DNA from: Acidimicrobiia bacterium
Lineage (GTDB): Bacteria; Acidobacteriota; Vicinamibacteria; Vicinamibacterales; CAVVIG01
Direction: 5' to 3'
Assembly: GCA_016871175.1 (NCBI GenBank)
Contig: VFZL01000009.1
Span: forward strand, 62,001-126,000
DNA: 64,000 bases
Shown: piece by piece, positions 8,707-19,641 of the stretch
How the letters are laid out: every line of letters begins with the position of its first letter
How positions within the stretch are numbered: position 1 is the first letter of the stretch
Position numbers and translations under genes: made by a program
The notes under the pieces: model-generated
What the model was told of the DNA's origin: nothing
What the model saw: only the letters and a program-made list of their open reading frames with translations
The model's database searches: none

Positions 8707-8739
8707 TGTGAGGTGGACACATCCGATTATAGCTGGCGG

Positions 8740-10452
8740 TCAGCCGCGGACGGGTTCAGGCGTGATATCGCGCAGGTATCGCCGTGCGGCGGACAGGCCT
8801 TCAACGGCGAAGATGAACGGATAGAGGTCTTCGAAGTACCAGAGGCGAGCGAAGTACAACCCGATTGGCGCTGGTCGTGGCTCATCGTCGCGGCAGGCAT
8901 CAGCGAGCCAGCGCACGGCGGCTCGCAGCGCCCGAGACAGCTCGTCGCGCGACTCGCGGCTGTTCGTCTCCGTCGTCTGCGCCATCGCCGCCAGAGCCGA
9001 GAGCGCGACGCCGGTCTCCTCGACCGACGAGGCGACCCCACGCGCGCCGCCGAATCCCCCATCGATGTTCTGAGAGGCGAGCAGCCAGCGGACGCCGCGT
9101 TCCGCGCATCGACCCGCGCGTTCATCGGCCGCCGAGAGGCTTGCGCGAAGGCCAAGCAGCACGCGGGCTGTCCCATACAGCGGATTGTCCTCCTCGGGCG
9201 CAGCCTCGTTTCCAAACCACAACGGCACCCAGCTCCCGTCCGGCTGCTGCGAGCGATCGAGGTAGTCGATGGCGCGGCGGGTCGCGCGCCGCAACTCGTT
9301 CTGCGTGGCCCGCCTCAGGAGCGGATACCACGTGCTCCACGCGCGAAGGGTATGGGCGGTGAGCTCGGGCGTGCTTCGATCGAACGGCAGCGCGCCACAT
9401 CCGCGGCAGAAGGTTGGGATGCCGCCGTCGCGGTTCTGCACGCCCAGCAACCAGCGTACACCAGCCTCGCCGATCGCGACATCTGCTCCACCAAGCTCGG
9501 AGAGCGCGACGAGTGCCCCAGCCGTGTCGTCGGCGTCGGGAACGCCTCCGCTCAAAGGCGTCCAGGCCCAGGCCCCCGGCGCCGCATGTGTGAACGGATG
9601 CTCGACGCGGCTCTGCTGTGCGCCGACCCAGCGGCCGATGGCCGTCCTCTCACCATGCGTCAGCACGCCGCTCGACGAGAGCGCGATAGCCGACAACGTC
9701 GTGACCCACGTCGAGAGATCGCTGTCAATCGGCCGGCTTCCGTCCTGACGCGCCGTGTCGACGAGAAACTGCACGCCCGCCTCGGCCACCGCGTGATCGG
9801 CGTGATCGGCCGCAGCCAGACTCATGACGACGAAGCTCGTGAGCGGACTGGCTTCGAGGTAGCCGCCGCTCGCCGGCTGTATCGCGCGCAGGATCGTGCG
9901 TGTCCGTTCGCCGGTGGCGTTGCGCACGATTCGCGCCAGCGGATTCCGTGTCGGCGCGAACCGATGCCTCGCCTGACCGATCGCGATGAGCGCGGGCAGC
10001 GCGTAGCTGACCACCGGCAGTCGGAGTCGATGAAACCAGGTGTGTGGAAGCGCGGAAAGCTCGAACGGCAGTTGCGGCACGTGCCTCCAGGCGCGGATCG
10101 GATCCGACCCGAGCTTGCCACACAGCGCCAGCACCGTGAGGATGGGCACCGAGAACGTCCGGTCCTTGCCGTAACGTTTGAGGATGGCCTCGCGCAGGGC
10201 ATTCGGCGTCGTCTCCCCTGCGGCCCCGCGCAGCCAGGTGGCCGACTTCTCCACCGCGATGGCGCACGACTCGCTCGTGCCAGCAACGGCTGAGAGTGTG
10301 GCCCACACGATCGCGGTGGTGCTGATATTGCTCCGACTGCGCACCGTATCGCCCCAGCCGCCATCGATGTTCTGGTGCTCGGTCAGCCACCGTACACCTC
10401 GCTCGACGTGTGGCCGCAGCCTGGCGCTCGAGTTCGGCCGATGAAGGTCCAC
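8740..10452 (-). CDS. Squalene-hopene-cyclase-like / prenyltransferase-squalene oxidase repeat protein
   Basis: Repeated QW-type motifs (QNIDGGWGD, QNRDGG, QQPDGSWVPLW, QNIDGGFGG), class-II cyclase motif DADDTA and C-terminal LYFARLWYFEDLYPFIFA; GTG start. Confidence 0.85.
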   Translation of the reverse strand: MDLHRPNSSARLRPHVERGVRWLTEHQNIDGGWGDTVRSRSNISTTAIVWATLSAVAGTSESCAIAVEKSATWLRGAAGETTPNALREAILKRYGKDRTFSVPILTVLALCGKLGSDPIRAWRHVPQLPFELSALPHTWFHRLRLPVVSYALPALIAIGQARHRFAPTRNPLARIVRNATGERTRTILRAIQPASGGYLEASPLTSFVVMSLAAADHADHAVAEAGVQFLVDTARQDGSRPIDSDLSTWVTTLSAIALSSSGVLTHGERTAIGRWVGAQQSRVEHPFTHAAPGAWAWTPLSGGVPDADDTAGALVALSELGGADVAIGEAGVRWLLGVQNRDGGIPTFCRGCGALPFDRSTPELTAHTLRAWSTWYPLLRRATQNELRRATRRAIDYLDRSQQPDGSWVPLWFGNEAAPEEDNPLYGTARVLLGLRASLSAADERAGRCAERGVRWLLASQNIDGGFGGARGVASSVEETGVALSALAAMAQTTETNSRESRDELSRALRAAVRWLADACRDDEPRPAPIGLYFARLWYFEDLYPFIFAVEGLSAARRYLRDITPEPVRG

Positions 10453-11065
10453 CCTGCTTCAGCGCGATCAGACAGCTCTGCCGTTCCTTCAGCGCGCGCT
10501 CGTCGTCGCGCTCCTTCGAGAAACGAGACTTGGCCTTGGCGCTGCGGTCGCGCAGCATGGAGTAGATATCGCCGCCGAGCAGCGCCGAGATGTCGACCTT
10601 CATCGCCTCTCGACGAACGTCGTCGGCTTTCACGTCCTCGCCGTTGAGCGGCCCGTGCCGATACTTCGGGAACATGATCGCCACCTCAGGGCACACACGT
10701 GAGCACGCCGGACAATCCGTCTTGCAGTTCGATTGATTCTGGACCTGGATCTTCCGGTCGGGCGAGACGCCGTACACGTCGAACAAGCAGAAGCTCAGGC
10801 ACTGCATGCAGTTCGTGCAGCGCGAGTAATCGATCACCGGGAACCACGGCTTCCACCTTGGGGCCGGACTCTCGGACGGCGGCTTGATCTCGGCCTCCAG
10901 CTTCGCAGCGGCTACCGTGAGATCCACGGCGCTGGCCAGGTCGGCACCGTGCTCGTGACGGCACACGACTTCGAGCCCCTTGTCCAACAATAGACTTGCG
11001 AGCGTCGCTCGATCGGCCGGGTTCAGCTGACCGTCGAGACGCAACGTCACTTGCGACGCGGACAT
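10449..11065 (-). CDS. Two-cluster 4Fe-4S ferredoxin-like protein
   Basis: CTNCMQCLSFC and CKTDCPACSRVCPEVA cysteine motifs. The reading frame stays open to 9725; the C-terminal boundary given here is arbitrary, set where the cyclase begins. Confidence 0.75.
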
Positions 11066-11076
11066 CGGGACTATGT

Positions 11077-11445
11077 TCACACCGTCGTCGTCTCCGCCGA
11101 AGGCCCTGGTTCCGATGCGTCGGAGCCGAGCATGCCGCTGACGACCTCCTGCGCCGGTTCGAGGCGCATGTTCCACACCCGGGCGCTCTGCGGCAGGTCA
11201 CCGCCCGCAGCGGCGAACAACCAGCGAACGGCTCGCGAATAACAGGCCGCCACGCGCAGCGGCTCGCCTTTCGCCAGCTCCTGCAGGCGCGGGTCTCGGC
11301 GCGCGGCCATGGCACACAGGTCCGGGCCGGCGTCGAACTCGACGCCGGCTTCGGACAAACCGCGCAACACGGCGGACTTAACCTCGTTCGGGATCACTTT
11401 TGCGTATGCGCAGTGACAGTACAGCAGCGCGGGACGACCGCTCAT
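11077..11445 (-). CDS. Small Cys-containing protein of unknown function
   Basis: ORF with LLYCHCAYAKVIP, DLCAMAARRD, ACYSRAVRWLF; 4-nt overlap with the upstream CobW-like gene. Confidence 0.75.
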   Translation of the reverse strand: MSGRPALLYCHCAYAKVIPNEVKSAVLRGLSEAGVEFDAGPDLCAMAARRDPRLQELAKGEPLRVAACYSRAVRWLFAAAGGDLPQSARVWNMRLEPAQEVVSGMLGSDASEPGPSAETTTV

Positions 11446-12560
11446 GCCACCACCATCCGATGCGTGGTCTGCGGACGACCGGGCCGGAAGTGCTCGCGGT
11501 GCTGCACCTCGACGGTGACACCTGTCTCACGGGCGATCTCGTCGAGGCTCTGGGCCACCAGGCTGTGCAGCGGCTCAGGATCGGCCTCGGCGCGAAGGTT
11601 GACGATCGCCTCGCCTTCCGCCAGCGGCTCCTCGAGGCGATGCACCGACTCGCGCCGGCCATCGGATCTGACGATGTTGAGGACGGCAAGGTCCCTGCCG
11701 GAATCCGGGGACAGCGTCATCTTGAAGTGAGCGATCTCGATGTCCTCCCGGTGCAGTCGCCCATGAATCGCCGCGCCCAGTCGTGCCAACCACTCGTTGC
11801 CGTGTGACGGCGTCACCGCCGTCACACGGCACGTAAGGTTCAACCAGCCGAGCAACGCTTCGCCCTCCGCGTAGAGGTCGTAGTCCAGGTCCATCGTCGG
11901 GGCAAACGTGGTCGCGGAACCCTCGGCCCCGGCACCCGCGACACGTGAGCACCACGCATCGACGCCATCACCGGTCCGAGCGCTCATGAAGTGCAGATCA
12001 GCCTTGGGGAAACGCGACCGGAGTGCGTCGCCCAGCGCGTCTCGCCGCGCGTCGTCGAGCACATCCAACTTGTTGACAACGATGATCTCCGCTTCTTCGA
12101 GTTGCTTCTCGTAGACGTATTGAACCTTCGGCGAGAACGTTCGACCGACCTCCAGGCCGAGGACACGCGCGGCACGGACTGGATCGACCAGAACGCTGAG
12201 CGGCGCGACGCGATAGTTCTCGCCGTACATCCGACGAAGCGGATACTGAACCGTGGCGTGCAGGTCGGTGCAGCTCCCTACCGGTTCGGCCAGGAACACG
12301 TCGGGGCGAGCGTCACGCATGAGGCGATCGGCCGCTTCCGTCAATGAGTGGAATCGGCAACAGACACATCCACCGGTGATCTCGGCAGACGCGTACCCAT
12401 GAGCCGACACAAGCGTGGTGTCGACCAATCCTTCACTCTGATCGTTGGTGATTACGCCAACGCGACGGCCTTGCTCGGTCAGACGTCTTGCGAGGCGCAG
12501 AATCGCGTTCGTCTTTCCGGCGCCCAGAAATCCGCCGACCATGATGTAGTCAGGAGTCAT
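11442..12560 (-). CDS. COG0523/CobW-HypB-UreG family GTPase
   Basis: GGFLGAGKTNAI Walker A, GGCVCC (CxCC) metal motif, VNKLD. Confidence 0.9.
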   Translation of the reverse strand: MTPDYIMVGGFLGAGKTNAILRLARRLTEQGRRVGVITNDQSEGLVDTTLVSAHGYASAEITGGCVCCRFHSLTEAADRLMRDARPDVFLAEPVGSCTDLHATVQYPLRRMYGENYRVAPLSVLVDPVRAARVLGLEVGRTFSPKVQYVYEKQLEEAEIIVVNKLDVLDDARRDALGDALRSRFPKADLHFMSARTGDGVDAWCSRVAGAGAEGSATTFAPTMDLDYDLYAEGEALLGWLNLTCRVTAVTPSHGNEWLARLGAAIHGRLHREDIEIAHFKMTLSPDSGRDLAVLNIVRSDGRRESVHRLEEPLAEGEAIVNLRAEADPEPLHSLVAQSLDEIARETGVTVEVQHREHFRPGRPQTTHRMVVA

Positions 12561-13048
12561 CGTCCGTCTTCTTCAGCGTCTTTTCCGGTGTACCTGCTCG
12601 CGAGCATCTTGTCCACGGTGGCGTCGAGAATCGCGACGTATCCATGAACGTCGACCACATCTGGCGCCGGCTGGCCGGAAAGCTTAGACAGCCATCCCTC
12701 GCCGTAGCAATCGGATTCGACCAGCGTCACGTCTTGGCGCAGAGCTGGGCTGTCGCCCAGGAACTGACCCGTTCCGACGGCGAAGACGCTCGAGATGGCC
12801 TTCATCCCCTCGACAGTACCCACTTCGTCCCCAATTTCAACTCGAGAACCCGACGCGACCGTGAAGTGGAACTCGACGATATCGCCGAGCATTCGCGTGG
12901 CGAACCTCGTCAGTCCGACACGCCAGATGCCAGGCGCCTCCTCCAGGATCCAGTAGTGCGCGGGCGAGTACAGACGATCCACGGGCAAATGTGTCGTAAA
13001 TCGCGAGCGGCGGTAGTACACCGTGCGTTCTGGTGGTACTGCAGTCAT
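12557..13048 (-). CDS. Glycine cleavage H-like lipoyl-carrier protein
   Basis: Lipoyl site region VGTVEGMKAISSV and C-terminal LVESDCYGEGWLSKL match GcvH architecture; ATGA overlap with upstream and downstream genes. Confidence 0.85.
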   Translation of the reverse strand: MTAVPPERTVYYRRSRFTTHLPVDRLYSPAHYWILEEAPGIWRVGLTRFATRMLGDIVEFHFTVASGSRVEIGDEVGTVEGMKAISSVFAVGTGQFLGDSPALRQDVTLVESDCYGEGWLSKLSGQPAPDVVDVHGYVAILDATVDKMLASRYTGKDAEEDGR

Positions 13049-14214
13049 CGCGCGGCGTTGGAGCGATGGCGAAACGGCTCGAGCGCCCGCACCATCGCGG
13101 ACCCATCCGGCTGTGGTGTGTCGGCGAACCACGAGAAGCGAATGGCGCCATCCGCTCGCCACCCGTCCAGCCGCATCGCTTCGAGCACGTGGCTGCAGGT
13201 CTGCGTCAGTGTGGTGCACGCCGCGCCGTGCGACACCCCGACGAGATCGTGCCACGCGTCCATCGCGACTTCGGCCTCAACGCCCGTGATGGAAAGGTTG
13301 ACGATGTAGGGCACCAGCTGCTGCGGATCTCCGTTGACGACCGGATCGAGCGGCGCCAGACCGCACATGAGCGCGTCGCGGAACGCCGCACAGCGGCGCG
13401 CGCGATCGCCGGCCTCCGACGTCGCAAGCGCACAGGCCAGGCCGAAGCCGACGATCAGCGGGACCGGCAGCGTGCCTGGTCGCAGACCGCGTTCCTATCC
13501 GCCGCCGAACATCAAAGGGTGCAGCGGCGGTCCCTCCTGCCCTCGACGCCGGACGATGAGCACGCCGATGCCCTTGGGACCCATAATCTTGTGTGCGCTG
13601 GCGCTGATCAAATTGATCCGCGGATGCCGGAGCCCCGGCTCGTCGCGCGCGAAACTCTGGGCCGCGTCTACGTGAAAGTACGCCTTCGAATTCACAAGGC
13701 CGTCTGCGATCGCTTCGATCGGTTGGATCGCGCCGGTCTCGTCGTTGACGTGCATCACCGAGACGAGTCGCGTGTCGTCGGTCACTGCCTCGAGCACGCG
13801 AACGGGGTCGACCACGCCGCTGCGTCCCGGCCGTACGAGCGTGAGCGTGAGCCTGCCGTCGCGACGCTCGAGCGCCTGCAGCGGCTCCAGCACGGCGCGG
13901 TGCTCGATCGCGGAAGCCACGACTGAACCGCGTTCGCCAGCGGCGTTCATCAGTCCGAGGATCGCGAGATTATTGCTCTCGGTGGCGCCGCTCGTGAACA
14001 CCACGTCGCCTCGGCTGGCGCCGATGGCGGCTGCCACTTGATCGCGCGCCCGTTCCACGGCCGCCCGAGCTCGCGTCCCCCACTCGTGCGTGCGACTGCC
14101 CGCGTTGCCGAACTCCTCCTCGAAGAAACGTCGCATCTCGGCGCCGACGCGAGGGTCGAGCGGTGTTGTCGCCGCACAGTCGAGATAGACCGTGGTGGCT
14201 GCCACGAGGCTCAT
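13045..14214 (-). pseudogene. Cysteine desulfurase (NifS/IscS-like) interrupted by one in-frame TAG
   Basis: N-terminal part MSLVAATTVYLDCAATTPLDPRV...SAHKIMGPKGIGV...MFGGG, then TAG (13497-13495), then ERGLRPGT...SHGAACTTLTQTCSHVL in the same frame. Confidence 0.85.
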
Positions 14215-14242
14215 TATGACGCGACGCGCCGAGCATCGCGAC

Positions 14243-14395
14243 TCATTCCTGATTCGGCGCGACCTTGTCAATCGGCAACGCGACGAGGAGCACTGCCTTT
14301 CCGCCGAACGGATCTCGAGAGGATCCCAGCACGGAGCCTTCGTCGCGCTCGACCGCCGCGACCAGATCACGGAGCGCGGCCGCATCGACGCCGCG
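14243..14395 (-). pseudogene. Orphan coding-like fragment
   Basis: Manual translation GVDAAALRDLVAAVERDEGSVLGSSRDPFGGKAVLLVALPIDKVAPNQE* with a GC-rich third-position pattern but no in-frame start seen upstream. Confidence 0.35.
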
Positions 14396-14419
14396 GGGCG
14401 AGGGGCACGGGGCGAGGGG
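14395..14419 (+). other. Canonical G-quadruplex motif (G4-N3)x3-G4
   Basis: Literal sequence GGGGCGAGGGGCACGGGGCGAGGGG. Confidence 0.85.
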
Positions 14420-14447
14420 CTGGCGCTACCGCCCGGCGAGAGTTAGG

Positions 14448-16136
14448 ATGCGCACTATGGCCCGAATCCTTCTGTCCCTCGCGATCGGGGTCATGGCGGG
14501 CGGCTGGTGTGAGCTCGGCATGGCGCAGACCATGGACGAGCTCATCAACGACGGCAAGGATCCAGCAAACGTCGTCACGCAAAGCCTGGGCTTCGACCGT
14601 CGGAACTACAGCCCGCTCACGGAGATCAATCCGTCGAACATCAAGCGGCTGGTCCCGATCTGGAGCACCAGCCTGATGAACGAGATCGGCGAGCTCGGCG
14701 CGCCCACCGTCCACAACGGCGTCATGTACATCGTGAACGGCAAATGGACGTTCGCCATCGACGTGGCCACCGGTCGGCAGGTGTGGCGCTCGCCGATCTC
14801 ATTCGATGAGGGCGTGTACAAGGTGGCGCCGTTCGGCGCCATCAACCGAGGAGCCGCGACGCTCTACAACGGGAAGGTCTACCGGGTGACCATCGACAAC
14901 CATCTGCTCGCCATCGACCAGAAGACGGGCAAGGTGGTGTGGGATCAGGTGTTCGCCGACTTCCGGGAGGGCTACACGGCGACGGGCGCGCCGATCGTCG
15001 CGGGCGGCGTCGTGATCTCGGGGGTGGCAGGCGGAGAGTTCACGACACGAGGTTTTCTCGACGGCTGGGACCCGGAGACCGGACAGAAACTGTGGCGTCG
15101 CTACACCGTGCCGGCGCCAGGCGAACCGGGCTCCGAGACCTGGCCGAAGAACTCGGACGCATGGAAGTGGGGTGGTGGCGCCACGTGGCGCTCGGGTTCG
15201 TACGACCCCGAGCTGGACCTCGTGTACTGGGGCACTGGCAATGCGGAGCCGTACGATCCGCGACCGCGCGGCCATCTGGATAGCCTGTACACGTCCAGCG
15301 TGATCGCGATTCGACCGAAGACTGGCGAAACCGTGTGTCACTACCAGTACACACCCAACGATGTGTACGACGTGGACGGCACCGACGAGCTCGTGCTCGC
15401 CGATCTCACCATCGGCGGCAAACCGCGCAAGACGATGATTCAGGCCAACAAGAATGGATTCGTGTACGTCCTCGACCGAACGAACTGTTCGCTCATTGCC
15501 GCGCACCCGTTCACGAGGGTGAATTGGGCGTCTCGCATCGATCTCGAGTCCGGGAGACCGGTGTTGACCGAGCTATACGAGAAGTTCCTGTCCGGCCAAG
15601 AGGTGGAGATTTACCCACAGCGGGGCACCAACGCGGTGCCGATCGCCTTCAATCCCAGCACGGGTCTCGTCTATGCGACCACGTGGAACGTGCCGCGCAT
15701 CCAGAAGTTGGCGCCCCCGAAGCCACAGGTCATCGGTACCAATTCCACCGGCGTTGTCGGACGCCAGCCGGTGCTGAAGCCGGGCGAGATCGCCGGACAC
15801 TTCCTGGCCATCAATCCGCTCACGGGTCAGAAGAAGTGGGAGATTCCGCTGCCTGACATGCCGAGCTCTGCGGGCATGCTGGTGACGGGAGGCGGCCTCG
15901 TCTTTACCGGCAAGCTCACCGGGGAGTTCGTCGCGCTCGATGAGGCCACCGGTCAGACCCTGTGGCAGTTCAAGACCGGGTCGAGCGTGAACTCGACGGC
16001 AATTACCTACACGCACAACGGTCGCCAGTATGTCACCATCGTCTCGGGGCTCGGCGGCAGCCTCGCGAGGCGCTACGCGGCCCGAGACGTCCCCGCGGGC
16101 GGTTCAGTGTGGACGTTCGCGCTGATGGCGAACTGA
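14448..16136 (+). CDS. PQQ-dependent (quinoprotein) dehydrogenase, methanol/ethanol family
   Basis: Signal peptide, beta-propeller repeats (LLAIDQKTGKVVWDQ, FVALDEATGQTLWQFKTGSSVNS). Confidence 0.93.
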   Translation: MRTMARILLSLAIGVMAGGWCELGMAQTMDELINDGKDPANVVTQSLGFDRRNYSPLTEINPSNIKRLVPIWSTSLMNEIGELGAPTVHNGVMYIVNGKWTFAIDVATGRQVWRSPISFDEGVYKVAPFGAINRGAATLYNGKVYRVTIDNHLLAIDQKTGKVVWDQVFADFREGYTATGAPIVAGGVVISGVAGGEFTTRGFLDGWDPETGQKLWRRYTVPAPGEPGSETWPKNSDAWKWGGGATWRSGSYDPELDLVYWGTGNAEPYDPRPRGHLDSLYTSSVIAIRPKTGETVCHYQYTPNDVYDVDGTDELVLADLTIGGKPRKTMIQANKNGFVYVLDRTNCSLIAAHPFTRVNWASRIDLESGRPVLTELYEKFLSGQEVEIYPQRGTNAVPIAFNPSTGLVYATTWNVPRIQKLAPPKPQVIGTNSTGVVGRQPVLKPGEIAGHFLAINPLTGQKKWEIPLPDMPSSAGMLVTGGGLVFTGKLTGEFVALDEATGQTLWQFKTGSSVNSTAITYTHNGRQYVTIVSGLGGSLARRYAARDVPAGGSVWTFALMAN

Positions 16137-16164
16137 AGACCGGGACGCAGCCCCACGCGCGCCG

Positions 16165-16183
16165 GCGCGGGCTCGAGCCGCGC
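16165..16183. terminator. Candidate hairpin between convergent genes
   Basis: GCGCGG(G)CTC-GAGCCGCGC palindrome at the junction of convergent ORFs. Confidence 0.35.
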
Positions 16184-17145
16184 TACTTCACATTGACGCG
16201 AACGAGGATGTTGGTCCAGCAGCACTGATCGCCACCGCCGTCCTCTCCGGAATCGTCGTTCACCTGTGCGCGGAGCACGTACTCGCCTGGTTTGGCGAAC
16301 GTGGCGGTTGTCGACGCTTCGACGACCTTACCAGGGTCGCCGCCGGTGGTGAGCGGGATGCGCGCCGGGGCGAACGTCACCTCTCCTGGGGCGCGATGGA
16401 GTTTCCACGTAACCGTAATGTCTGGGCGCGGTCCGCGGGGACGTCCGCCAGTCCGTCCACCGAAGGTCTGATCCCCGATGATCGCCACCGGATCGACAAC
16501 GCTCGTGCGGGAGCGGATGTCCGCCAATTCCTCCTCGGCACCTCGCTGCGTCGACGGCGCGTCGGAAACCCAGAGCCGCAGCGGCAGGGGCAGGCCAACG
16601 GTCGCAGAGAGCGTCTGCGACACGTCGTACGGGGGGCCCGAGTGTGTCGAGCCCTTCTCCGCGAACCGGACGACCGGCGGGGTGTTCCCGCTCGCGGCGT
16701 GCTTGAAGAAGTCGACGAAGTAAGGAGGGTTCATCCAGAAGCTCACCGTCGACGTCTGACCGTTCACCGTCAGCGTCCACGTGAGCTTGTTGTTGCCGAA
16801 GTCCTTCGGTACTCTGATCGCGAACACTCCGTGACTCTGGCGCGGATCGAAGTGCGTGGGCTGCCCGAGATCCGGTCCGCCCGGCTCGATCTTATTGTCC
16901 GGTCCGATCGGAATGTCGTAGGCCTGGCTGCTGTTGCGGTTGTAGTACCCGAGGAGCAGCACCATTGAGCCGTCGGTGTGCCGCCCCCAGCCTTCGAATG
17001 CTGGAAAGATGGCCTCGCCGGTGCGTCCGAGCGGCTCCGCCGGAAGCGGTGTCCGCCGCTGCTGCGCGACACCGGTGGCCGTCAACGCGGCGGCTGCGAG
17101 CACGAGCGAAATCGCGACGCGAAGCCGACCAGCACGCGTCATCAT
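16183..17145 (-). CDS. Secreted protein of unknown function
   Basis: Signal peptide MTRAGRLRVAISLVLAAAALTATGVAQ; long ORF with coding composition. Confidence 0.75.
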   Translation of the reverse strand: MMTRAGRLRVAISLVLAAAALTATGVAQQRRTPLPAEPLGRTGEAIFPAFEGWGRHTDGSMVLLLGYYNRNSSQAYDIPIGPDNKIEPGGPDLGQPTHFDPRQSHGVFAIRVPKDFGNNKLTWTLTVNGQTSTVSFWMNPPYFVDFFKHAASGNTPPVVRFAEKGSTHSGPPYDVSQTLSATVGLPLPLRLWVSDAPSTQRGAEEELADIRSRTSVVDPVAIIGDQTFGGRTGGRPRGPRPDITVTWKLHRAPGEVTFAPARIPLTTGGDPGKVVEASTTATFAKPGEYVLRAQVNDDSGEDGGGDQCCWTNILVRVNVK

Positions 17146-17191
17146 CGCATCAGCCCCACGAGCACCATGCGCCACGCGCCCGCCCGCAGGT

Positions 17192-18544
17192 CTACTGCTG
17201 TTGCTGCTGCGTCGACCGCGTCAAGCGATCCTGTCGCGCGCGCACTTCCGCGTCGTAATCCTGATCGGACAGGTACGTTACGTTGACCCACGCATGCGCC
17301 ATCTCGTCGACGGTGCGGCCGCCGTAGCCGACCCACACGTTGGGGTCGGGATTCCCACGCTTGGCGGCGGTGTTGTCGTGCCACGTCTTCACCTTGATGA
17401 TCGTGCCCTTGGGAAGGAGCGGCGCCGCGTCATCGGCGTAGACGTATGCGCTGTGCCACATGAAGTCGAACTCCGCTACGTGGCTGAGGACGACCGTCTG
17501 CCCTGTGGGCAGCACCGCCTCGAGCGATTGCGCCTTCCCCCGCAGATGCATGTGCGGCTGGAAGCTCTCGATCCGCGCGGCCTGCCGCAGCGGGAAGTAG
17601 AACTCGGTCAACTGGAGGCTGTTCGGCGCGATGTCGATCGCCCCCGGACCCGTTTTGCCCATCCGGACCAGGTGCTGGCGGTGCTTCGGCTCCTGACCCT
17701 TCGGATAGAAGTAGATGCCGAGCTCGACGACATCGGTGATGTCCTCGCCGCCGTTCGAGTAATGGATGTCCCACCCGATGCGGGAGCCCGGGAGCATCAG
17801 CATCCCGCTATCCGGGCGCATGAGCTCCACGCCCTTGCCTACCGCCCACTCGGTGAACCGACCCGGTGTCATCGCGGCTGCCGGCGCGTCAGGGTCGATT
17901 TGAAGAATGTCGGCGTTGGCGTGGTGCGTGATCTTGCGACCCTTGATCGTGCCTGGCCGCGTCTCAACCGCGCGCACCCATCGCGGTTCGGTTAGACCCG
18001 TCGCGACGATTGGCGTGTGCCACGTATCGTTGGCGCCGGCCTTCTGCGTCCACGGGGTCGAGCGGATGATGAGGTCCGGTTCCTTCTGACCGAGGACCTT
18101 TGCGTACTCCCACTCCTGAGTCGTCGGCCAGACCCTCGCGGCGGGCATGTCCTTTGGATCGCCCTGCGGCGCGCCCTGGTCGACCCACTTCACGATGGTC
18201 TCGATCTGGTCGTCGTTGAGCGATCGGTCATTCTTGAACTTCTGGATGCCGAGCGCCTTGTCGATGTGCCACGGCGGCATCTGGCGCGCGTCGACTCTCG
18301 CGCGAATCGACCGGGCCCAGGGCCGTGCCTCGGCGTACGTGCGCAGCGACATCGGCGCGATCGAGTCCGGGCGATGACAGGCCTCGCACTTCTCCTGGAA
18401 GATCGGCGCGACGTCGCGCGTGTAGGTCGGGGACGCCGGTACTTCGGCCGCAACCGCCGATGCCGAGAACACCCCGAACGCAATCCCAAGCGCGGACAAA
18501 CCGAAGCGCACGTCCCTACTCATCGGAAGGCTCCCTCTCGCCAT
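17192..18544 (-). CDS. Secreted c-type heme protein with copper type II monooxygenase (PHM)-like C-terminal region
   Basis: Signal peptide, CEACH heme motif near the N-terminus, FQPHMHLRGKAQ and downstream WHDNTAAKRGNP / DEMAHAWVNVTYL. Confidence 0.75.
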   Translation of the reverse strand: MARGSLPMSRDVRFGLSALGIAFGVFSASAVAAEVPASPTYTRDVAPIFQEKCEACHRPDSIAPMSLRTYAEARPWARSIRARVDARQMPPWHIDKALGIQKFKNDRSLNDDQIETIVKWVDQGAPQGDPKDMPAARVWPTTQEWEYAKVLGQKEPDLIIRSTPWTQKAGANDTWHTPIVATGLTEPRWVRAVETRPGTIKGRKITHHANADILQIDPDAPAAAMTPGRFTEWAVGKGVELMRPDSGMLMLPGSRIGWDIHYSNGGEDITDVVELGIYFYPKGQEPKHRQHLVRMGKTGPGAIDIAPNSLQLTEFYFPLRQAARIESFQPHMHLRGKAQSLEAVLPTGQTVVLSHVAEFDFMWHSAYVYADDAAPLLPKGTIIKVKTWHDNTAAKRGNPDPNVWVGYGGRTVDEMAHAWVNVTYLSDQDYDAEVRARQDRLTRSTQQQQQ

Positions 18545-18717
18545 GGACCGGATCCACCGCCAGACCCTCGGAACCCGAAGGCTCGAACGAGGATCGACAA
18601 ATGCTACGCCCGCCAGGGGAAAGCGTCAAACGCGTGGAGCGGTTCGGTTTCACAGCGTTGACCAACTTGACCGGATCTCGTGGGCCCCGTAAGCTCCGCC
18701 CACACGGGGGGAAAGGC

Positions 18718-19605
18718 ATGAACAGGAGGTTCTTCGAAGGGGTGCGGGGCCGCGCTTGGCGGCTGGTCCAGGGGACTACCGGATTCGTGGGTCTCCTGGT
18801 GCTGCTAGCTCCACACCTGGTCGCGCAGCAGCCGCAGCGGCGCGCGAATCGGCTCGTCGAAATCCTCGCCCAGGACAAGTCGGCCATCTCAGGCGAAACC
18901 TGGACGTTTGTGGACCGGGAGCATCGTCCCTACGACATCACGGAGCTTCGCGCGACGCTGAACAAGCTGCTGGCGAACAAGAATGCACAAGGCCAGCCGA
19001 CTCTCGCACCCATCGTCCGGATCCCGGCAGAGGGCGACCAGGACGTGCGCTGGATCATCAAACAGGTGCTCGAGAGCGGTGCAATGGGCATCATCGTGCC
19101 GCAGGTAGAAGAACGGGAGCAGGCCTTGAAGGTCGTGCAGTCGATGCGCTATCCGCAGCTCAAAGGATCGAAGTATCCGAACCCGCCGGGGCGCCGTGGG
19201 TGCGGCTGCTCCGGCGGCGCCGGCTGGGGGCTGCAGAATCCGGCGGATTACGTTTCGCTCGCAGATGTCTGGCCGCTCAATCCGCAAGGCGAGCTCATCG
19301 CGTTCCCGATGATCGAGACGCCGCTCGGCGTGAAGAACGTCAACGCGATCCTCGACGTCCCGGGCGTCGGCGGTGTGCTCATTGGACCGTCAGATCTGAC
19401 GATGAACCACGGCGAAGGGCGGTGGAACAGCCCGGAAGACAAGAAGCCGGACACCGAGGCCGCGATTCAAACGGTCGCCAAGGCGTGCGTCGCCAGGAAG
19501 AAGACGTGTGCGATGGTGACTGCCAACGACAAGGAGACCCAGCAGTACCTGTCGATGGGCTTCAAGGCGATCTACGCCACGTATCGGCCGGGATCGTCGT
19601 CTTGA
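18718..19605 (+). CDS. HpcH/HpaI-type aldolase/citrate lyase family protein with an N-terminal signal/TM segment
   Basis: PIVRIPAEGDQDVRWIIKQVLESGAMGIIVPQVE, PMIETPLGVKNVNAILDVPGVGGVLIGPSDL; hydrophobic N-terminus GFVGLLVLLAPHLVAQQ. Confidence 0.85.
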   Translation: MNRRFFEGVRGRAWRLVQGTTGFVGLLVLLAPHLVAQQPQRRANRLVEILAQDKSAISGETWTFVDREHRPYDITELRATLNKLLANKNAQGQPTLAPIVRIPAEGDQDVRWIIKQVLESGAMGIIVPQVEEREQALKVVQSMRYPQLKGSKYPNPPGRRGCGCSGGAGWGLQNPADYVSLADVWPLNPQGELIAFPMIETPLGVKNVNAILDVPGVGGVLIGPSDLTMNHGEGRWNSPEDKKPDTEAAIQTVAKACVARKKTCAMVTANDKETQQYLSMGFKAIYATYRPGSSS

Positions 19606-19641
19606 GTCGGGGCTGCGCCCGAACCCCGGCGCGGTCTCGAG

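Follow-up and report, generated by a model that had tools for sequence, protein, structure and literature searches.

The question raised by positions 8,740 to 14,214 of a 64,000-nucleotide stretch of Acidimicrobiia bacterium contig VFZL01000009.1 (the whole stretch is called the window below) was whether the genes encoded there form a working operon, and what such an operon would make. The genes encode a cysteine desulfurase, a lipoyl H-like protein, a CobW GTPase, a cysteine-containing (Cys) protein, a 4Fe-4S ferredoxin and a squalene-hopene cyclase (SHC)-like protein. On balance, the locus was judged to be a decayed copy, probably gained by lateral transfer, of a conserved nine-gene cluster whose likely product is an isoprenoid. 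The notable finding is the intact cluster, which occurs in several phyla; the lead from the window came from a broken copy.

The six genes and the intact cluster

The six families were all found on the minus strand, as the preliminary description had reported. Three 4-nucleotide ATGA overlaps were present (13045-13048, 12557-12560, and 11442-11445), and 11 nucleotides separated the Cys protein from the ferredoxin, whose ATG is at 11065. The Pfam scores of the window proteins were all above cut-off: aminotransferase V, 209 bits; GCV_H, 67.5 bits; cobW, 90 bits; Fer4_10, 27.6 bits; and SQHop_cyclase_C, 106 bits. The Cys protein had no family in Pfam or NCBIfam. The features of the locus were as follows.

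13045..14214, minus strand: cysteine desulfurase of a DndA-like subfamily (Pfam aminotransferase V; TIGR03235 below its equivalog cut-off), interrupted at codon 240 by an in-frame TAG (window about 13495-13497)
12557..13048, minus strand: GcvH-like lipoyl-carrier protein (Pfam GCV_H), intact, with a lipoyl-type Lys in EGMKA
11442..12560, minus strand: CobW-family GTPase/metallochaperone (Pfam cobW), open frame, with a GGCVCC motif
11077..11445, minus strand: Cys protein with motifs YCHC, DLC, AACY, and NMR; no Pfam or NCBIfam family; predicted alpha/beta fold
10431..11065, minus strand: two-cluster 4Fe-4S ferredoxin, C-terminus lost; homology ends at the deletion junction
10413..10455, minus strand: deletion junction found by comparison with relatives, about 4.04 kb of whose sequence is gone
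8740..10430, minus strand: SHC-like class II cyclase (Pfam SQHop_cyclase_C), N-terminal ~57 residues lost, DXDD (VPDADDT) retained

The preliminary description took these six genes as the unit; in relatives the unit has nine. When 14–20 kb were read around six H-like orthologues, about 4 kb normally lay between the ferredoxin and cyclase genes. The intact unit consisted of desulfurase, lipoyl H-like protein, CobW, Cys protein, ferredoxin, radical SAM protein, a fusion of a DUF116 domain with a polyprenyl synthase, a small toroid protein, and the SHC-like cyclase, and was often accompanied by a divergent lipoate ligase. In L016, a genome of the same family as that of the window (the same record as Luteitalea sp. 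Dino_bin7, L026), the ferredoxin-cyclase interval encoded a radical SAM protein of 396 aa, a DUF116-polyprenyl synthetase fusion of 576 aa, and a toroid protein of 296 aa, and the lipoate ligase was divergent and upstream of the cluster. The earlier proposal of an undescribed operon with an Fe-S/lipoyl-dependent reaction linked to an isoprenoid was strengthened, because the intact clusters hold a polyprenyl diphosphate synthase and a radical SAM protein that were lost here.

The distribution of the cluster was investigated by scanning the ferredoxin alignment over one genome per species, which gave 429 loci encoding relatives of the ferredoxin. The best 80 were kept, and 85 neighbourhoods were read (79 of the 80 kept loci and six from relatives), many of which end at contig ends. 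The Cys gene was present in 80 of these neighbourhoods, CobW in 70, the radical SAM gene in 65, and the DUF116-prenyl synthase in 55; a single-domain LplA-like lipoate ligase lay beside the cluster in 18. The co-localisation was far beyond chance, and the operon proposal withstood this comparison, which had been named beforehand as the test that could overturn it. The order H-like, CobW, Cys protein, ferredoxin, radical SAM, DUF116-synthase fusion, toroid, SHC-like cyclase was repeated in Acidobacteriota, Planctomycetota, a KSB1 genome, and Verrucomicrobiota, where it was often rearranged. The desulfurase, where found, was usually first or last. The DUF116 fusion and small toroid genes overlapped by exactly 59 nucleotides in L016, L018, L019, and L020, with proteins 61–63% identical. 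Clustering of all other open reading frames (ORFs) around the loci gave no further widely conserved neighbour family.

The cluster genes co-occurred in part even where they were scattered. The DUF116-prenyl synthase was found in the same genome in 9 of 10 genomes tested, in most of which the ferredoxin locus was shortened, rearranged or divergent; in two of the ten the fusion sits in the ferredoxin locus itself. Within the class, 21 of 152 genomes had a radical SAM orthologue at 570 bits or more, and the remainder had no match at E ≤ 1e-70.

Several database records required separate consideration. Three gut records titled 'Bacteriophage sp.' and marked UNVERIFIED in GenBank (L138, MT836374; L139, MT835501; L140, MT836688) encoded proteins related to the radical SAM enzyme along most of its sequence, at 25–28% identity. 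These are probably bacterial contigs, because in L139 and L140 the gene is flanked by ordinary bacterial chromosomal genes, e.g., argininosuccinate synthase; no cluster genes lay beside it there. A record titled Acidimicrobiia (L099) had a cluster CobW protein identical to that of G059, a relative in the window's own order, and one titled Klebsiella pneumoniae (L102) carried cluster genes that are unexpected there. Both record names look wrong.

Lesions and setting of the window copy

Two lesions were found in the window copy. The desulfurase gene model of the preliminary description was wrong: codon 240 is TAG, within a conserved FGGG-Q-ERG stretch that reads FGGG-TAG-ERG in the window. Programmed read-through of this stop was considered and not favoured, and the relatives read carry Q or H at this position. 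The ferredoxin gene had been described as abutting the cyclase gene. Its frame in fact stays open as far as 9725, about 700 nucleotides into the cyclase gene, and differs from the frame of the cyclase. Mapping by tblastn of the L016 proteins against the window placed the junction at 10430/10431, where the relatives' ferredoxin (264 residues) breaks off at residue 230 and their cyclase sets in at residue 58. The lost stretch was about 4,040 bp in L016 coordinates: the part encoding the ferredoxin C-terminus, that encoding the cyclase N-terminus and, between them, the three genes for the radical SAM protein, the DUF116-polyprenyl synthase fusion, and the small toroid protein. Changes at otherwise invariant residues were also frequent: the window copy ranked 2 of 28 for desulfurase, 1 of 71 for CobW, and 2 of 42 for cyclase. 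In the cyclase, two otherwise invariant Trp were changed, W240R and W352C (numbering of the 570-aa ORF from 10452), and the CobW motif was GGCVCC in the window versus GGCFCC in 67 of 70 orthologues.

The deletion junction and the TAG led to rejection of a functional six-gene operon in this genome. A reduced operon acting on host polyprenyl diphosphates, with the TAG read through or due to a sequencing error, is highly improbable. The H-like, CobW and Cys frames are open, the cyclase retains its catalytic DXDD, the codon-position pattern is no worse than that of intact relatives, and the genome has two ordinary polyprenyl synthases. However, this explanation has to accommodate a ferredoxin without its stop and C-terminus, joined out of frame to a cyclase without its N-terminal ~57 residues, together with the nonsense codon in the desulfurase and the loss of the two cyclase Trp.

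A second explanation is that the deletion and the nonsense codon are metagenome assembly artefacts and that all nine genes are in fact present in the organism. The genome is indeed a draft of 85 contigs. However, the junction lies inside a single contig, and no radical SAM orthologue, DUF116 domain or fusion was found elsewhere in the window's own genome, whose assembly is 96.8% complete. The second, independent lesion and the changed invariant residues also point to decay, and an artefact was considered improbable.

Relaxed selection was examined by codon position. The test was positive against two close relatives; the signal was gone when ten intact clusters were used as controls, most of which had ratios equal to or above that of the window copy, and the test was not used. 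Because the window copy had no non-synonymous excess, the lesions, if real, are recent, and long decay is not claimed. In the L021 cluster, the prenyl-synthase match was split in two and an extended H-like frame contained an in-frame stop. Judging by L021, other carriers may also be decaying or contain assembly errors.

The site of the window copy was compared with the same site in relatives. In four relatives, of which one belongs to the same genus, lepA and the citrate synthase gene are adjacent; in the window, 10.9 kb lie between them. A clear orthologue of the H-like gene was present in a minority of related genomes (8 of 60, the window's own counted). Lateral gain at the lepA/citrate synthase site, followed by loss of the core enzymes, would be the simplest account. 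The only repeat found at the edges of the inserted segment was one 78% inverted pair. The segment carries the decayed cluster; its extent and its further features are as follows.

8707..19641, no strand: 10.9-kb segment from lepA to the citrate synthase gene, absent at the same site in four relatives
14265-16136, plus strand: PQQ-type dehydrogenase, inside the segment
16183-17175 and 17192-18544, minus strand: two ORFs without a Pfam match, inside the segment

An open minus-strand frame at about 14217-14400, ending ...VDAAALRDLVAAVERDEGSVLGSSRDPFGGKAVLLVALPIDKVAPNQE*, lay immediately upstream of the desulfurase and overlapped the start of the PQQ dehydrogenase ORF. It resembled the truncated tail of another gene.

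Enzyme families and proposed pathway

The L016 prenyl synthase matched polyprenyl synthetase PF00348 at 136 bits, above cut-off. Both Asp-rich motifs were present and were conserved in the orthologues listed, which places these proteins among the trans-polyprenyl diphosphate synthases; a geranylgeranyl diphosphate synthase was matched at 7e-38. The cyclases belong to the class II (DXDD) terpene cyclase superfamily: VPDxDDT was found in 41 of 41, and the cyclase profile matched solved squalene-hopene cyclase structures at E = 5e-38. Radical SAM proteins had PF04055 and CxxxCxxC, which assign them to that superfamily. In the other proteins, EGxKA was found by pattern search in 57 of 61 H-like orthologues, the catalytic-Cys loop and pyridoxal phosphate motifs were present in the desulfurase orthologues, and the ferredoxin had eight invariant Cys in two sets, CxxCxxCxxxC and CxxxCxxCxxxC. 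The DUF116 fusion, in an alignment of 26, also had eight invariant Cys: C108, C115, C126, C129, C132, C174, and C202 in the DUF116 domain and C304 in the synthase part. In the structural model of the fusion, the DUF116 part was poor, with several blocks of predicted local distance difference test score (pLDDT) below 60, and a fold search with this model returned prenyl synthases only, among the matches listed. The conservation of the prenyl-synthase and cyclase motifs gives good support to an isoprenoid as the likely product of the cluster.

The following pathway is proposed from these family assignments. The DUF116-fused polyprenyl synthase would make a prenyl diphosphate. Protonation by the SHC-like DXDD protein, probably assisted by the small toroid protein, would cyclise it. 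The radical SAM enzyme may modify either the prenyl chain or its cyclised form. In clusters that have the divergent lipoate ligase, this enzyme would charge the lipoylated H-like carrier, and the CobW GTPase may load metal. Desulfurase, H-like carrier, ferredoxin, Cys protein, and the Cys-rich DUF116 domain could bring electrons and/or sulfur to the radical SAM step. The order of the steps is presumed, like the relay itself, and sulfur may or may not end in the product.

The cluster is best read as a widespread, undescribed terpenoid pathway, in which prenyl-chain synthesis, DXDD cyclisation, and radical-SAM chemistry are combined, the last of these fed by a dedicated Fe-S/lipoyl/desulfurase module. 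A more specific proposal, a new class of isoprenoid pathway, is possible and is advanced tentatively. Here a dedicated desulfurase would feed a lipoyl carrier and an HdrA-like/ferredoxin relay, and these would pass sulfur or electrons of low potential to a radical SAM reaction acting on a prenyl chain that is cyclised by a DXDD protein. The result would be a polycyclic lipid, either sulfur-containing or remodelled by radical chemistry, common to Acidobacteriota, Planctomycetota, and Verrucomicrobiota.

The Cys protein bears on the relay. Its predicted alpha/beta fold was of high confidence (pLDDT 93.8), and its alignment to HdrA N-terminal domains of the same phylum showed collinear CxC, C, ACxP, and NxR motifs. 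The hhalign comparison with the HdrA N-terminal domain gave P = 0.059, and the mean pairwise score was reached by 0 of 200 shuffles (z 4.2). Foldseek matched HdrA of the Elp-Hdr complex at E 0.16–0.21, among many Rossmann-like folds, and a PDB sequence search with the Cys protein returned designed repeat proteins and other spurious matches only. A likeness to the HdrA N-terminal domain is thus no more than suggestive. The preliminary description had seen no Hdr subunits; this held for HdrB, HdrC, and full HdrA, none of which recurred in the cluster, and may be wrong for the Cys protein.

It was also considered whether the cluster is mainly an Hdr-like redox or sulfur-transfer module with a lipoyl carrier, its toroid and prenyl-synthase proteins acting on another substrate or as structural partners. 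Four of its components bring sulfur-oxidising Hdr systems to mind: the desulfurase, the lipoyl carrier with a nearby single-domain lipoate ligase, the two-cluster ferredoxin, and the Cys protein with its suggestive likeness to HdrA-N. However, no DsrE or TusA family recurred in the cluster any more than the Hdr subunits did, and the conserved Asp-rich motifs and DXDD argue for active isoprenoid chemistry. This explanation was considered rather unlikely.

Several points weigh against a decayed copy of an isoprenoid-building cluster with a sulfur or electron relay. In the codon-position test, the window copy had no non-synonymous excess beyond saturation. Both lesions were read from the assembled sequence of one metagenome assembly. 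The similarity of the Cys protein to HdrA was weak (the hhalign value above; structural E at least 0.16). The sulfur/lipoyl chemistry is presumed to act on the isoprenoid, and the desulfurase could merely serve Fe-S assembly.

The gene set is kept together over at least three phyla, which suggests a product worth keeping. The Cys protein, DUF116 domain, two-cluster ferredoxin, and H-like carrier are proteins without a known role. To our knowledge, lipoyl/HdrA-like transfer and terpenoid synthesis have no known meeting point; if such sulfur or electron transfer does feed terpenoid synthesis, the pathway would join two chemistries and suggest a function for DUF116 that could be tested. Some carriers, among them Chthoniobacter flavus Ellin428 and Planctomycetales bacterium ZRK34, are available as an isolate or have a finished genome, so the product is reachable by lipidomics.

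Comparison with known systems

No description of the cluster was found in the literature searched (subscription literature lay outside the search), in agreement with the earlier statement that the gene combination matched no pathway that could be named. The defining features of hopanoid clusters, glycine cleavage, Dnd, and sHdr systems were tested, and none of these identities was borne out. Squalene-hopene cyclase of the hopanoid/triterpenoid pathway shares the fold family and DXDD motif of the SHC-like protein, but the latter was far under the hopene- and squalene-cyclase cut-offs (TIGR01507, 82.6 of 431.1 bits; TIGR01787, 115.6 of 322.7 bits). No squalene-forming gene recurs in the cluster, which adds DUF116, desulfurase, lipoyl carrier, CobW, and Cys proteins. 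Thioplatensimycin-type diterpenoids are a precedent for bacterial terpenoids that contain sulfur and arise from a prenyl diphosphate by class II cyclisation. They use a thioacid cassette instead of radical SAM, lipoyl, and DUF116 proteins, a distinction drawn by description only.

The H-like protein was compared with known lipoyl carriers. As a glycine cleavage H protein it scored 60.8 of the 115.85 bits of the gcvH equivalog, though the EGxKA Lys is present. NF045810 is a GcvH-like NCBIfam model whose short name, GcvH_rel_desulf, refers to a desulfurase; against its cut-off of 150 bits, the window protein scored 27.9 and a relative 45.8. The sHdr-LbpA system (PMC6067878) shares with the cluster a GcvH-like carrier with an adjacent single-domain LplA-like ligase, a conserved lipoyl-type Lys, and Fe-S partners; the Cys protein, with its suggestive likeness to the HdrA N-terminal domain, may be a further parallel. 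In contrast, no HdrB, HdrC or full HdrA recurred in the 85 loci, where this small protein was the only candidate for such a component. LbpA of sHdr sulfur oxidation is marked by two strictly conserved Cys (eLife 2018, PMC6067878), which are missing from the H-like alignment of the cluster, where no Cys is invariant.

DndA/SspA desulfurase of DNA phosphorothioation was the best family match of the desulfurases of the window, L016, and one planctomycete. The TIGR03235 cut-off of 480 bits was not reached (window, 429; L016, 459). No other Dnd or Ssp match was found among the window proteins scanned, and no such family recurred beside the cluster. In other lineages, IscS-like and other desulfurases hold this slot. 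It was filled by three distinct subfamilies in all, which suggests that desulfurase activity itself is needed.

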